Source of the DNA: Bacteroidota bacterium
GTDB lineage: Bacteria; Bacteroidota; Bacteroidia; 2-12-FULL-35-15
Assembly: GCA_947469885.1 (NCBI GenBank)
Contig: CANIQT010000004.1
Coordinates: 124,001 to 188,000, forward strand
Direction of reading: 5' to 3'
DNA: 64,000 nucleotides
Shown: positions 7,954 through 29,102 of the stretch, piece by piece
How positions within the stretch are numbered: the stretch's first letter is position 1
Layout of the letters: every line of letters starts with the position of its first letter
Notes under the pieces: model-generated
Database searches by the model: none
Told to the model about the DNA's origin: nothing
Seen by the model: the letters and a program-made list of their open reading frames with translations, nothing else
Translations under genes and position numbers: made by a program

Positions 7954-8043
7954 TAAAAAGGCTCATTCTTCCATCAGTATCTCCTGCTTTTTAGATAGAA
8001 TTTATTACCTATTTTTTAAAAAATTAGTTCGATCACCATTTTC

Positions 8044-8071
8044 TTAACATTTACTTAACATTGAATTAACG
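8044..8071. promoter_or_regulatory. Pho-box-like triple direct repeat
   Basis: TTAACA at 8044-8049, TTAACA at 8055-8060 and TTAACG at 8066-8071 are spaced exactly 11 bases apart. This is the geometry of PhoB/PhoP boxes; in Bacillus the PhoP consensus is TTAACA at an 11-bp step. The site is about 40 bases upstream of a -7 box serving the phosphate genes, so phosphate-responsive control is a reasonable inference. Confidence 0.55.
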
Positions 8072-8112
8072 CAATGGTAATCTAGAATTTTCTTTTAGAT
8101 TCCATAAGAAGT

Positions 8113-8120
8113 TACTTTTG
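8113..8120 (+). promoter_or_regulatory. -7 promoter box upstream of the DUF47-PiT genes
   Basis: TACTTTTG matches TAnnTTTG and lies 45 bases before the DUF47 start codon. No good -33 box is seen, which would suit a promoter that needs an activator bound at 8044-8071. Confidence 0.5.
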
Positions 8121-8121
8121 C

Positions 8122-8149
8122 CTAACGTTAATTTAACATTGAATTCATA
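8122..8149. promoter_or_regulatory. Second weaker 11-bp-spaced repeat
   Basis: CTAACG (8122), TTAACA (8133) and TTCATA (8144) again step by 11 bases, but they lie around and after the predicted transcription start. They may be a second regulator site or coincidence. Confidence 0.3.
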
Positions 8150-8165
8150 TTAAAATCCATTTCAA

Positions 8166-8810
8166 ATGAACTTAAACATCTTTCAATTTTTCCAGCCAAA
8201 AGATAAAATCTTTTTTATCCTTTTCCGTAAAGCAACGGCTAATGCTACCGAAACTTCAAAAGCATTGGTTGAGTTAGTAACCACTACTTCTACCGACAGG
8301 AGAAAAGAATTATTCAGAGAAATTGAACGGCTGGAACATATGGGCGATGGCATTACCCACGAAACTTTTAATGAGTTGAGTTTAAATTTTATTACTCCTT
8401 TCGACAGGGAAGATATTCATGATTTAGTTTCCTCTATTGACGATATTGTGGATTATATTCATGGTGCATCCAAACGGATTGAACTTTACAAAGTAGAAGA
8501 AATGACTCCGGCTATTATTAAACTTTCTGAATTAATTTTGAAAGGCTGTGAGGAATTGGAAAATGCAGTGTCCGAACTTCGTGTGCTGCGCAATGTTTCT
8601 AAAATAAAAGAATCAACCGTTCGTATCAATAGTATCGAAAATCATGCAGATGATATTTATGATATGGCAATTGCAAAATTGTTTGAAGAAGAAAAAAACG
8701 CAGTGGAAGTTATTAAAATGAAAGATGTTTTGTTTGTGCTCGAAACCGCCACCGACAAATGCGAAGAAGCTGCGAATGTTATCAATACTATTTTAATTAA
8801 AAATGCTTAA
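8166..8810 (+). CDS. DUF47 family (PhoU-like) phosphate transport regulator
   Basis: The 214-residue all-helical protein belongs to the DUF47/PhoU-like family. Features include REIERLEHMGDGITHETFNELSLNFITPFDREDIHDLVSSIDDIVDYI at about 56-100, with the acidic EXXXD-type metal-binding positions of PhoU proteins, and a second half repeating the pattern (RINSIENHADDIYDMAI). DUF47 proteins are usually encoded just upstream of PiT transporters, as here, and are thought to gate or regulate uptake. It lacks a signal peptide and should be cytosolic. The 11-bp TTAACA repeats upstream suggest phosphate control. Confidence 0.92.
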   Translation: MNLNIFQFFQPKDKIFFILFRKATANATETSKALVELVTTTSTDRRKELFREIERLEHMGDGITHETFNELSLNFITPFDREDIHDLVSSIDDIVDYIHGASKRIELYKVEEMTPAIIKLSELILKGCEELENAVSELRVLRNVSKIKESTVRINSIENHADDIYDMAIAKLFEEEKNAVEVIKMKDVLFVLETATDKCEEAANVINTILIKNA

Positions 8811-8897
8811 ATAATTATGGGTTATGAGTTATGAATTATGAGTTAAGGGACATTCATAACTCATAATTCATAACTCATAATTCATAACTCAAAAACT
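8811..8897. repeat. Long-stem inverted repeat between DUF47 and PiT genes
   Basis: The 8824-8844 arm (ATGAGTTATGAATTATGAGT onward) is perfectly complementary to 8858-8878, giving a 21-bp stem with a 13-base loop. The right arm repeats the same AACTCATAATTCAT phrase once more. It fills almost the whole spacer of a co-directional pair. There is no T-run, so it looks like an mRNA-stabilising or mobile palindromic element rather than a plain terminator. Confidence 0.8.
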
Positions 8898-10550
8898 ATG
8901 ACTCTATTAATAATAGTAATAGCATTAGCACTGATATTCGATTTCATAAATGGATTTCATGATGCTGCAAACTCAATCGCTACAATTGTTTCAACCAAAG
9001 TGTTAACTCCTTTTCAGGCGGTGCTGTGGGCGGCATTTTTTAATTGTGTTGCGTTTTTAATTTTCAAAGACCATGCAGTTGCCAACACCATCGGCAAAAC
9101 AGTTTATTCCGATTTTATTTCTTTACCCGTAATTTGTAGTGGTTTAATTGCTGCTATCTGCTGGAACCTCCTCACCTGGTGGTACGGTATTCCTTCTTCC
9201 TCTTCGCATACGCTTATTGGAGGATTCGCTGGTTCTGCTATTGCCTATGCATTTCTGAGCAAAGGAATGATGCCTATCAGCGAAATTATTGATAGTAGTA
9301 AAATTGGAAAAACAATATTATTTATTTTTTGTGCTCCGCTTATTGGTATGATGATTTCTATATTTTTTACTCTTATTTTTATTCAGAACAGAACATGGAT
9401 AAAGGTAGGAATACTGGGAGGTTCGGCTTGTCTCATTTATTTTTTGTTTATCGGTTTTCAAGAAGATAAGTTGGCTGAAAACGTTAATAAATTTTTTAAA
9501 GTAGATAAATACACCTACGAAATAAATATAAAACACGATTCCACAAAAGCACATAAGCTAGAAAAAGCAATGCTGAGTGCCGCTACCTGTCAGCCTTTTC
9601 TTTCCAAATACGAATACCACGGTTCGGAGTATGTGGCAAACGAAATTGTGAACAATGTGGATATGAAAGAAATTACCATCAGCCGATTGGGCGACAAACT
9701 AAATACTTATTTTAAAATAGACCAGCTGAAAAACAAAGCCAAAGTGGACCCGGCATTTAAAGAAGAATATGAGGAAACAAAAAAAATAGTTGACAGTTTG
9801 AAACCCATCACCAAAAAGTATTTTGATTTAGGACATGACGGAATGGTGGCTACCATGACTACCTTGTATCCTATTAGCCCTGATAAATTGAAAGACTTCA
9901 GCAAAGCAATGGACATTAATATAAAAGCTGACCTTACCAAAGAATTGAGCAAGGCTGATAATAAAATAGTACGCTGGGGCTTAGTAGCCATGTTGTTTGT
10001 TTTTGCATTCATGTTTATTTACAACGAAAAAATAAAAACCCCGAGTGCCAAACGAACTTCCAACTCTTTCAAACGCGCACAATTACTGTCTTCTGCCGCT
10101 TTCAGTATTGGGCATGGAGGCAACGATGCACAAAAAGTAATGGGAATTATTGCAGCAGCATTGGTTGCCAACGGAAGTATTGTTGATATTAAATCAATGC
10201 CCGACTGGATTCCATTGTCCTGTTATTTAGCCATCGGATTAGGCACCTTAAGCGGTGGGTGGAAAATTGTAAAAACCATGGGAACCAAGATTACAAAGGT
10301 AACTCCGCTCGAAGGTGTATGTGCCGAAACAGCAGGTGCCACCACCTTGTTTTTAACAGAGCAAATGGGAATTCCTGTTTCCACTACTCATACCATTACC
10401 GGAGCCATTATTGGAGTGGGTGCCACCAAAGGACTTAGCGCAGTTCGTTGGGGAGTAACCGTTAGTTTATTATGGGCATGGATACTTACCATTCCTATCA
10501 GTGCTATACTAGGTGGATTATTTTATTGGATATTTAGCTTGTTTTTGTAA
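8898..10550 (+). CDS. Inorganic phosphate transporter, PiT family
   Basis: The 550-residue membrane protein carries both PiT signature repeats: GFHDAANSIATIVSTKVLTP near residue 20 and GHGGNDAQKVMGIIAAAL near residue 412. They flank paired membrane-spanning halves with SSSHTLIGG and STTHTITGAIIGVG. PiT proteins bring in phosphate with a cation gradient. About 165 residues between the halves (roughly 195-360) are soluble and charged, a loop larger than in the simplest bacterial PiT proteins. It follows DUF47 by 87 bases filled with an inverted repeat, so the two likely form one transcription unit. Confidence 0.95.
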   Translation: MTLLIIVIALALIFDFINGFHDAANSIATIVSTKVLTPFQAVLWAAFFNCVAFLIFKDHAVANTIGKTVYSDFISLPVICSGLIAAICWNLLTWWYGIPSSSSHTLIGGFAGSAIAYAFLSKGMMPISEIIDSSKIGKTILFIFCAPLIGMMISIFFTLIFIQNRTWIKVGILGGSACLIYFLFIGFQEDKLAENVNKFFKVDKYTYEINIKHDSTKAHKLEKAMLSAATCQPFLSKYEYHGSEYVANEIVNNVDMKEITISRLGDKLNTYFKIDQLKNKAKVDPAFKEEYEETKKIVDSLKPITKKYFDLGHDGMVATMTTLYPISPDKLKDFSKAMDINIKADLTKELSKADNKIVRWGLVAMLFVFAFMFIYNEKIKTPSAKRTSNSFKRAQLLSSAAFSIGHGGNDAQKVMGIIAAALVANGSIVDIKSMPDWIPLSCYLAIGLGTLSGGWKIVKTMGTKITKVTPLEGVCAETAGATTLFLTEQMGIPVSTTHTITGAIIGVGATKGLSAVRWGVTVSLLWAWILTIPISAILGGLFYWIFSLFL

Positions 10551-11203: not shown

Positions 11204-11387
11204 GTCTCATCGTTTTTGTGGTTTAGCTGTATTACTTTCATTTTATCTTTTGTTCACGAGCTTTTCGGGAGTGAATCAACTTAACTCACCTCTTGCATCG
11301 CTTAATTTGTTTGTCATTAATCTATCTTTCATTTTAATTATTAATTATGCATGTGTTTCCAATTATTATACCTCTTTTTCCACTCTA

Positions 11388-11597
11388 TCTTCAATTAGAA
11401 ATGCTCCATCTGCAATTGATTATGCTTTGTCTGCAATAGGTTATACATTATCTGCAATAGAAAATGCTTCATCTGCAATAGCAAAAATGTTATCTGCAAT
11501 TGCGGTTACTCCATCTGCAATAAGAAAAACTCCATCTGCAATAGCAAAAATATCATAGGTAATTGCCGATGCCACATATTCAATTGCCGAAATTTCA
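11388..11597. repeat. Array A: degenerate 21-bp direct repeats
   Basis: Ten units step by exactly 21 bases from 11388. Units 2-8 share TCTGCAATAG followed by AAA and a CTCCA-like end; units 1, 9 and 10 are more decayed. The step is a multiple of three and units lack stops on the plus strand, so a frame with a seven-residue repeat (SAI plus four variable residues) runs through it. No gene is supported here. See the findings for the shared 21-bp step with four other arrays. Confidence 0.9.
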
Positions 11598-27033: not shown

Positions 27034-28416
27034 TTATTTGTTTGGAATTCGGATTACAACCTTTGTCCCTTTATTGAGTTCCGAAGTAAGTGTAATTTCT
27101 CCTCCGTGAATTTTTATTATCTTTTCGGTGAGTGAAAGTCCGAGCCCGTTTCCATGAATATTTTTTACATTTTTAGCTCTGTAAAAGGGTTGGAATATTT
27201 TTTCGACATCTTCATTATCTATTCCTATTCCTTTATCCACAAATTCAACTGCTACATATTTTTCTCCAGCACTTATAAATACTTCTATAGTATTTTGGGG
27301 TGAATATTTACATCCATTATCCATCATATTACTTATGGCTGTTTTTAGCAAATAATCGTTTCCGAAAACCATAAGCTTTTTTTCATCGTCATTCACATTC
27401 TTAAATTGAATCAAAACCGTGTATTCTTTTTTTAGTTTCAATAATTCTCCTCTTGCTTCCCAAACAAGTTCATCAATCCGCAAATTTTTAAGTGATAGTT
27501 CTGAAATGTCGGAACTTACTTTTGCGAGATCAAGAAGTCCGTTAGATAACCCATTCAGATTTTTAATATCCTCTAATACTGATTCCAGAACACGTACGTA
27601 ATCTTCCTTTTCTCTTTCCTTGAGTAGCGACACTTCTATTTGTCCTGTAATAGATGTAAGCGGAGTTCGCAATTCGTGCGATGCGTTGGATACAAAACTT
27701 CTTTGCATTTCGAACGACCACTCCAATCGTTCCAACATTTTGTTAAAGGTAATGGCAAGCTGTGCTATTTCGTCTGTCCCGTTTCCTTCTTTTACTCTCA
27801 TGTTTAAACTGGCAGCATTTATTTTATCTACCTGTTTCACCACATCCGACATGGGTTCAAGTGCCTGTTTGGCAAAAACTCTTCCTATCAAAATAGTAAA
27901 TAGGATACTCAATAAAAAAGTAATGATTAATAAAAATTTCAAATAGCTCAATTTGCTCAACCCATATTTATCTAGTGCAGATACTACCACCACAAACCAA
28001 TTGTTTTTATTTTTATACAAAAGCCCAAGAACTTCATTTTCTCCTATTTTATAACGCAGTTTATTGTTTAACCTTATTGTGCCTAACTGCTCTTTATTTA
28101 TATGAATAGAATCATTATCCATACTTTTATATATGATTCTGTTTTTATAATCAAACACAGCCACCCTTTCGTTAAACATTAGATTTGCTGTGTTTTTGTC
28201 TATTATTTTTAGCAAATTATAATCCACTGCTTTTACATTTACTAAAATTCGTGCTGTTGTTAGCGCTTTGTTTTCAAGTCGCTCGTAAAACTCACTTTCT
28301 CTGTAAGAAGATGATAAATAATAAATGCTTAATGAAAAAACGATGAGAATAAACGCTACAATCAACGTAAATTGCAACGTAAGGCGGGTTTTTATTTTTA
28401 ATTGAAAAATGTTCAC
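27034..28416 (-). CDS. Membrane sensor histidine kinase (two-component)
   Basis: The 460-residue kinase has two membrane helices (about 13-35 and 158-180) bracketing a 120-residue periplasmic sensor. It then has a HAMP domain (about 180-232), the HisKA domain with phospho-accepting His247 in SNASHELRTPLTS, and the ATPase domain with N box (NMMDNGCKYSP) and GNGLGLSL. It overlaps the OmpR-type regulator by four bases (ATGA), so they are one operon and cognate partners. The signal is unknown. Phosphate (PhoR) or metal sensing are possibilities that the sequence does not decide. Confidence 0.92.
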   Translation of the reverse strand: MNIFQLKIKTRLTLQFTLIVAFILIVFSLSIYYLSSSYRESEFYERLENKALTTARILVNVKAVDYNLLKIIDKNTANLMFNERVAVFDYKNRIIYKSMDNDSIHINKEQLGTIRLNNKLRYKIGENEVLGLLYKNKNNWFVVVVSALDKYGLSKLSYLKFLLIITFLLSILFTILIGRVFAKQALEPMSDVVKQVDKINAASLNMRVKEGNGTDEIAQLAITFNKMLERLEWSFEMQRSFVSNASHELRTPLTSITGQIEVSLLKEREKEDYVRVLESVLEDIKNLNGLSNGLLDLAKVSSDISELSLKNLRIDELVWEARGELLKLKKEYTVLIQFKNVNDDEKKLMVFGNDYLLKTAISNMMDNGCKYSPQNTIEVFISAGEKYVAVEFVDKGIGIDNEDVEKIFQPFYRAKNVKNIHGNGLGLSLTEKIIKIHGGEITLTSELNKGTKVVIRIPNK

Positions 28417-29102
28417 TCTTTTAATATATAACCAACCCCTACTTGTGTTTTTATAAGTTTTGGTTCAAAATCTTTGTCAATTTTTTTTCTCAGAAAGTTA
28501 ACATACACATCAATAATATTGGTGCCCGAATCGAAAGCATTGTTCCATACATTCTCCGCTATCTCAGCTCTTGTAACCACCTTGCCTTTATTTCGCATCA
28601 AATATTCGAGCAATCCAAATTCTTTTTGCGACAATTCTATTCTTGTCTCGCCCCTTTTTACTTCGTAACTATCAAGATGCATTTCCAAATCCATAAATTT
28701 TAAAACTCTCAACGCTTTTTCTCCAGCTTTGGTGCGTTTCAGCAATGCCTTTATTCGTGCCATCAATTCCCCAAATTCAAATGGTTTTAATAGGTAATCG
28801 TCTGCACCGGCATCAAAACCTTTTAGTTTATCCAAACTGGTGCCCAAAGCGGTTAGCATGAGCACCGGAATTTTATCATCACTCTTTCTTATTTGTTTAC
28901 ATAATTCTATCCCACTAATTCCAGGTAGCATCACATCTAATATTACCAAATCGTAACTTCTCCTATCAAACAGTTGTTTCCCTACATTTCCATCATCAGC
29001 AGTTTCTACCCAATATCCAACTTCTTCCAAACCAAGTTTGATAAAAGAGGAAACCTTTGGCTCATCTTCCACCAGCAATATTCTTATTTTTATTTCTTCC
29101 AT
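28413..29102 (-). CDS. OmpR/PhoB-family response regulator
   Basis: The 229-residue protein has a receiver domain (about 8-120) with the acidic pocket (Glu12, Asp13), phospho-acceptor Asp56 in LVILDVMLP, the switch Thr and Lys107 in LLKPF. A C-terminal winged-helix DNA-binding domain (about 130-228) has ELSQKEFGLLEYLMRN and NIIDVYVNFLRKKID. It is the partner of the kinase whose start overlaps its stop. Its stop is TGA, showing that TGA is a normal stop in this organism. A -7 box lies 25 bases upstream, followed further up by 21-bp array B. Confidence 0.94.
   Translation of the reverse strand: MEEIKIRILLVEDEPKVSSFIKLGLEEVGYWVETADDGNVGKQLFDRRSYDLVILDVMLPGISGIELCKQIRKSDDKIPVLMLTALGTSLDKLKGFDAGADDYLLKPFEFGELMARIKALLKRTKAGEKALRVLKFMDLEMHLDSYEVKRGETRIELSQKEFGLLEYLMRNKGKVVTRAEIAENVWNNAFDSGTNIIDVYVNFLRKKIDKDFEPKLIKTQVGVGYILKE

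Follow-up and report, generated by a model that had tools for sequence, protein, structure and literature searches.

Upstream of a gene pair for a DUF47 protein and a phosphate transporter of the PiT family, a 64,000-nt stretch of a Bacteroidota genome (the window) carries TTAACA-like hexamers at an 11-bp step, raising the question of whether these repeats form a Pho box through which the pair is controlled. In Bacillus subtilis, the PhoP box is made of TTAACA-type repeats with 5-nt spacers; the repeats described here have the same hexamer and the same 11-bp step, but differ in their placement, at 9 + 11k nt from the Bacteroidota −7 box TAnnTTTG. The Pho box of E. coli, according to the available text of its description, consists of at least two 11-nt direct repeats with CTGTCAT, to which PhoB binds head-to-tail (PMC4415409). 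The likeness to the latter lies in the 11-nt direct repeats before phosphate genes and the difference in the repeat sequence, TTAACA here and CTGTCAT in E. coli.

Within the same phylum, PhoB of Bacteroides fragilis binds the pstC promoter in EMSA assays, and both pst and a phosphate/sulphate permease depend on it (with an entry of −52.2 for the permease BF3715), the sequence of the box not being given in the text of that paper as available (PMC3547664). Putative Pho boxes near plcP are described for marine bacteria in the accessible part of another report (PMC4796936). The literature search, with most subscription papers outside its reach, gave no Pho box definition specific to Bacteroidota. 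PhoB-dependent or phosphate-responsive genes had already been measured in the phylum (B. fragilis, Flavobacterium johnsoniae), and the definition of the box is what the present analysis adds.

The repeats upstream of the DUF47-PiT pair

In the initial annotation, the downstream genes had been read as DUF47 and PiT, and both proteins indeed scored above the Pfam cut-offs. Three strong hexamers at an 11-bp step had also been described, which were read directly as TTAACA (8044-8049), TTAACA (8055-8060) and TTAACG (8066-8071), along with three weaker ones, found as CTAACG (8122-8127), TTAACA (8133-8138) and TTCATA (8144-8149), with the same step of 11. The elements of the region are the following:

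8033..8038, + strand: weak upstream unit TCACCA, extending array 1 (read from 8033 onwards, the matrix gives 22.5)
8044..8071, + strand: array 1, TTAACA-N5-TTAACA-N5-TTAACG, putative Pho box core, spanning roughly −81 to −54 relative to the predicted start
8077..8082, + strand: weak fourth unit GTAATC, extending array 1 (read directly)
8113..8120, + strand: TACTTTTG, match to the Bacteroidota −7 box TAnnTTTG, with a predicted start near 8125
8122..8149, + strand: array 2, CTAACG-N5-TTAACA-N5-TTCATA, possible second operator, at about −3 to +25
8166..8810, + strand: gene for the DUF47 (PhoU_div) protein (Pfam, 90 bits)
8898..10550, + strand: gene for the PiT-family phosphate transporter (PHO4; Pfam, 316 bits)

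Together with its two weak flanking units (8033 and 8077), the stretch 8044-8071 is very probably (at a rough probability of 80%) the Pho box of a PhoB-type regulator that would activate the DUF47-PiT pair. Its repeat unit is TTAACATTnnn; array 1 shows the tandem direct repeats at an 11-bp step expected of a Pho box, and it lacks the CTGTCAT repeat of the E. coli type. The exact pattern occurred once in the window, and when up to three mismatches were allowed two overlapping places were found, compared to a mean of 0.32 in shuffled sequences (at least two in 3 of 100). When the window was scored on both strands with a position matrix trained on 35 boxes from other genomes, the two boxes of the source genome being excluded, the top scores were 33.6 (8044), 24.2 (8055), 22.5 (8033), 15.0 (8122) and 9.8 (8111), compared to a maximum of 8.1 in the reversed window. 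At the place of the 8077 unit, a GTAAT- or TTAAT-like unit was common in relatives.

The initial annotation had proposed scanning the genome for the pattern and looking for hits before further phosphate genes, with a random spread over AT-rich spacers counting against the reading. With up to one mismatch, two matches were found in the source genome and none in the backwards control, the second site being located 69 nt upstream of the longest pstC ORF, in a cluster containing a porin-like gene, pstS, pstC, pstA, pstB and phoU. These two sites were ranked first by the matrix among 30 near-matches (35.7 for pstC and 33.6 for the window site, a shifted reading of which was also among the 30, at 22.5). 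A profile search (R1), in which 150 of 2619 candidates were scored, placed pstC at the top (E 1.5e-5), followed by the window site (E 0.009), with array 2 in ninth place (E 2.5); its alignments were partial and its hits included several non-phosphate sites. Upstream of the porin-like gene, whose product had no Pfam match, the site (porin-pstS) scored 11.4, below non-phosphate sites at 15-16, and as non-phosphate places of this genome reach such values, scores of that size carry no claim. With up to three mismatches, 31 matches were found vs. 57 in the backwards control, hence without any excess; as the loose matches are below the control, only strict or profile matches are informative. The scan thus bore out the proposal in that DUF47-PiT and pstC are the genes downstream of the two best sites, but the strong sites cover few genes; regarding random spread, the loose matches in the source genome do behave in this way, whereas the strict matches in the genus do not.

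The latter were obtained from 32 genomes, which are the whole set of the order at a completeness threshold of 80% and all belong to one genus. DUF47 was present in 28 of them, at 29 loci, and the array (at least 14 of 18 matches, at most 350 nt upstream) was found at 23 of these loci, compared to three for the backwards pattern, being absent from the other six. It also preceded pstC at 14 of 21 loci, and the seven loci without it carry a shorter type of pstC. A strict scan with up to one mismatch gave 24 places in the 32 genomes vs. four in the backwards control: eight before pstC, six before DUF47 (one reversed), three before porins or porin-like genes (two assigned by Pfam and one by likeness to the porin-like protein of the source genome), four beside dnaB, one at some distance from a gene that, from its first residues, we take to encode a polyphosphate kinase, and two others. 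As a control, 183 other 200-nt upstream regions of the same loci were scored, which are neighbours of phosphate genes and not a random sample of the genome. At least 15 of 18 matches were reached in 25 of them, compared to a maximum of 13 with the backwards pattern; according to labels read from their proteins, these regions belonged to a TonB-type gene facing phoB (9), pstC (7), phoB and neighbouring response regulators (5), porin-like genes (3) and a carbonic anhydrase beside phoB (1). Across the genus, the array is therefore positioned before phosphate-starvation genes, as a Pho box should be.

The triplet that adjoins dnaB in four relatives is conserved and TTAACA-like but of a different kind, and a weaker version was seen in the source genome at C6:146719-146746.

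Spacing to the core promoter and the putative regulator

The −7 box of Bacteroidota, TAnnTTTG, spans −12 to −5 from the start, as given in the accessible text of its description (PMC9723704). When the distance from the array end to the first TAnnTTTG was measured, in a search range of 15-60 nt, it was 9 + 11k nt (within 1) in 35 of the 35 genus promoters having both elements, which are related sequences and not 35 independent events. For DUF47, where 21 of the 29 loci had both elements, two boxed promoters had no TAnnTTTG and six loci were boxless, spacings of 20, 30-32, 41-42 and 52-53 were observed, with residues of 8, 9 or 10 mod 11 in all 21 cases. For pstC (n = 14), the spacing was 31 in 12 promoters, 32 in one and 42 in one. 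Ten class-level DUF47 loci, hand-picked from 29 new ones for a visible array and thus an illustration rather than a count, showed spacings of 8-9 or 19-20. In addition to its repeats and its genes, the array hence keeps a fixed position with respect to the core promoter. The 30 nt separating it from the −7 box were not conserved (identity 0.30), which would fit a promoter that depends on an activator and has no −33 element at a fixed place. Together, sequence and spacing provide a definition of the Pho box that is usable for Bacteroidota.

Regarding the regulator, the best PhoB match of the source genome is a response regulator encoded on contig C36, which does not reach the curated PhoB cut-offs. 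Likewise, 31 of the 32 genus genomes match the Bacteroides PhoB model at E 1e-58 or better, none of them passing its cut-off. Among 30 loci of relatives, the C36 orthologue has a histidine kinase beside it in 18 and a TonB-type gene facing it in nine. In the source genome, candidate PhoB- and PhoR-like genes are both present and unlinked, and a kinase on contig C3 is 75% identical to the kinase beside phoB in a relative. The array-like site upstream of the phoB-like gene was equalled or beaten by at most 4 of 100 shuffles at 23 of the 30 loci, and such sites point to autoregulation; the phoB promoter of the source genome itself reached a matrix score of only 1.6-2.6. The arrays borne by the phoB neighbours would predict that these genes respond to phosphate, in agreement with F. 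johnsoniae, in which phosphate depletion induces TonB-type genes beside phoBR; the available text of that paper uses none of the terms Pho box, motif or promoter (PMC8115612).

Two other candidates were rejected. One, a kinase/regulator pair next to a near-match on contig C2, had initially been read as PhoBR, but its regulator matches the RprY profile best and its kinase is a different one from that beside the C36 orthologues. The second best match to the PhoB model is a regulator in the window (28413-29102), which is nearer to a heavy-metal CopR-type profile; it is part of a histidine kinase and response regulator pair on the − strand (27034-29102), with 244 bits for the CopR/CzcR-type profile, below the cut-off. 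A separate observation is that purD, and not the kinase, adjoins the phoB-like gene at 5 of the 30 loci of relatives; in the source genome (C36:1117-3218), this gene is also followed by purD, the kinase being on a different contig.

Under phosphate starvation, PhoR, likely the kinase on C3, would phosphorylate PhoB, likely the response regulator on C36. This OmpR-family protein would then occupy the tandem 11-bp half-sites in head-to-tail order along a single helix face, its register relative to the −7 box being fixed, and would recruit RNA polymerase for the expression of DUF47-PiT, as may also happen before pstC in this genome.

Distribution beyond the genus and alternative explanations

When about 85,000 species were searched for exact matches to TTAACATTNNNTTAACATTNNNTTAACR, with no backwards control alongside, 73 stretches were found, none of them within an ORF of at least 150 aa. 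Phosphate genes adjoined 31 of these, according to labels and phyla assigned by reading: 15 of 18 in Bacillota (all before pst or Na/Pi cotransporter genes), 3 of 4 in Chloroflexota, 13 of 38 in Bacteroidota (a count that includes one Ignavibacteria-type record) and 0 of 13 in others. As the exact stretches reach phosphate genes in each of the three phyla, the TTAACA form is common to Bacillota, Chloroflexota and Bacteroidota. Adjoining phosphate genes were found for 27 of the 45 stretches with unlike spacers vs. 4 of the 28 with identical spacers. When pstC upstream regions were inspected across the phylum (29 loci), clear arrays were present only in some AT-rich families, with none before pstC in the high-GC families of this set.

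The other 25 Bacteroidota stretches had no adjoining phosphate gene, which counts against the Pho box. In an alternative reading, the array is the operator of another OmpR-family regulator, for instance an RprY-like one, which would control phosphate uptake among other genes. At least six OmpR-type regulators are encoded in the source genome, two of them closest to RprY, and TTAACA arrays precede non-phosphate genes in other Bacteroidota and also phage genes. Moreover, PhoP of Riemerella anatipestifer, from the same phylum, was assigned by DAP-seq a TTTAACA motif like the array found here, with autoregulation and 583 peaks, many at non-phosphate genes; it differs in that these peaks are discussed mainly with regard to virulence and aerotolerance, and neither "pst" nor "direct repeat" appears in the text as available (PMC9603813). 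Against such a regulator, strict matches in the genus are concentrated at pstC, DUF47 and porin genes and around phoB. The register is informative as well: in eight Bacteroidota phosphate matches of the exact scan having a −7 box, the nearest residues were 9 (six cases), 8 and 7, whereas in eight non-phosphate matches with a −7 box, two pairs of which come from related genes, they were 0, 1, 2, 2, 5, 5, 7 and 7, so the register kept in the former is lost in the latter. We thus regard control by another regulator as unlikely, and the spacing rule appears to tell phosphate-linked arrays from look-alikes, which would allow the regulon to be read from genomes.

It is highly improbable that the repeats arose by chance in an AT-rich spacer or are the remnant of a tandem repeat: loose matches were no commoner than in the backwards control and the 28 exact stretches with identical spacers look tandem-like, but the spacers here are unlike, and the matrix score, the conservation in the genus, the strict scan and the register all contradict this explanation.

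The Pho box therefore remains the preferred reading, supported by the matrix score, the conservation, the link to phosphate genes and the register, from which we infer the binding of PhoB, its phosphorylation, the activation of the pair and the identity of the regulator. It is weakened by the regulator scoring below the PhoB cut-offs, the low scores of the phoB and porin-pstS sites of the source genome, the lack of excess among loose matches, the DUF47 and pstC loci of the genus without an array, and the missing arrays in high-GC families.

Next to TTAACA arrays of Flavobacteriaceae, and likewise at C1:219275-219811 of the source genome, short secreted proteins that look alike by eye are encoded; they are perhaps targets of a sister regulator.

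Array 2 and arrays in viral contigs

Array 2 is a separate array placed over the predicted transcription start and not an extension of array 1. Since an operator over the start site is expected to block the polymerase, it could act as a brake on expression when phosphorylated PhoB is high, a role that we propose tentatively. Somewhat more probably, it is not an operator of this kind, being either part of an AT-rich leader or an auxiliary site that aids activation rather than braking it. In line with this alternative, its matrix score of 15.0 falls inside the genome-wide noise, its column identity (0.51) equals that of the next nine bases without exceeding it, and it is absent among phylum relatives with short leaders. 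In favour of an operator, 7 of the 21 promoters examined in the genus have a three-unit array with at least 13 of 18 matches at a fixed position, following the −7 box by 1-2 nt, compared to a mean of 0.08 and a maximum of two in 1000 trials with shuffled leaders. Also, all 11 promoters with at least 11 of 18 matches were in one half of the DUF47 tree (13 rows), whereas in the other half, where 10 were scored, the maximum was 9, the deep split between both halves being weakly supported (50/91). On this tree, array 2 required five changes (two forced by well-supported branches) vs. a mean of 7.8 after shuffling, with values as low in 7 of 500 shuffles, under a coding in which two promoters at 11 of 18 were entered as lacking array 2.

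The exact pattern was also detected in viral contigs, at 41 stretches. TAnnTTTG was present within 70 nt in 14 of them, each with a copy at 9-10 mod 11. Across the 41 loci, 112 two-unit arrays were counted vs. nine in the backwards control, and 29 of 30 −7 boxes were in register; as one contig group occurs several times, the figure after removal of near-copies, done for this count only, was 18 of 19. A free-gap scan (5 to 35) gave 83 stretches, and among the matches listed 83 of 87 positions had gaps of 8-10 mod 11, near-copies included. In the 107 viral loci, exact two-unit arrays numbered 196 vs. five backwards and 103 of 117 −7 boxes were at 8-10 mod 11. The first 40 kb (of 77.5) of Tenacibaculum phage Larrie contained 18 arrays vs. 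one in the control; a −7 box accompanied 15 of these arrays, at 31-32 nt in every case, the putative phage promoters lying at about 10.9-19.9 kb. No clear excess was found in Nonlabens phage P12024L (2 vs. 1) or Polaribacter phage P12002L (5 vs. 3). The terminase of one viral contig was nearest to those of flavobacterial phages, and the portal protein of another matched only these phages. Judged by its sequences, a class of putative phage promoters follows the array/−7 box code of the host.

An OmpR-type DNA-binding domain was absent from the 22 viral records searched, many of them fragments, and a PhoB-type protein of the host would be the reader of the phage arrays. A tblastn search of the phosphate proteins of the source genome against the 107 viral loci gave no match. 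If a host regulator reads the code in flavobacterial phages, infection would be tied to host nutrient signalling without a phage phosphate gene. Pho regulation in a Synechococcus virus has reportedly been treated in one study (PMC10976474).

Taken jointly, the 9 + 11k spacing of array and TAnnTTTG might represent an operator-promoter code that Bacteroidota share for a PhoB-type (or sister) regulator and that their phages have copied as a regular class of promoter, with array 2 conferring a biphasic expression on PiT, a combination that we consider rather doubtful. If true, phage gene expression would be wired to a two-component regulator of the host and, in the lineage of the window, PiT would be switched on at moderate and shut off at severe starvation.

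Two further features were seen near the DUF47-PiT pair. The intergenic region between both genes contains a long inverted repeat (8815-8887) with a predicted hairpin of −40.2 kcal/mol (z −13), whose arms contain a 14-bp tandem unit found nowhere else in the window. Downstream of the pair, positions 11383-11551 are occupied by tandem repeats of a 21-bp unit with ATCTGCAAT.
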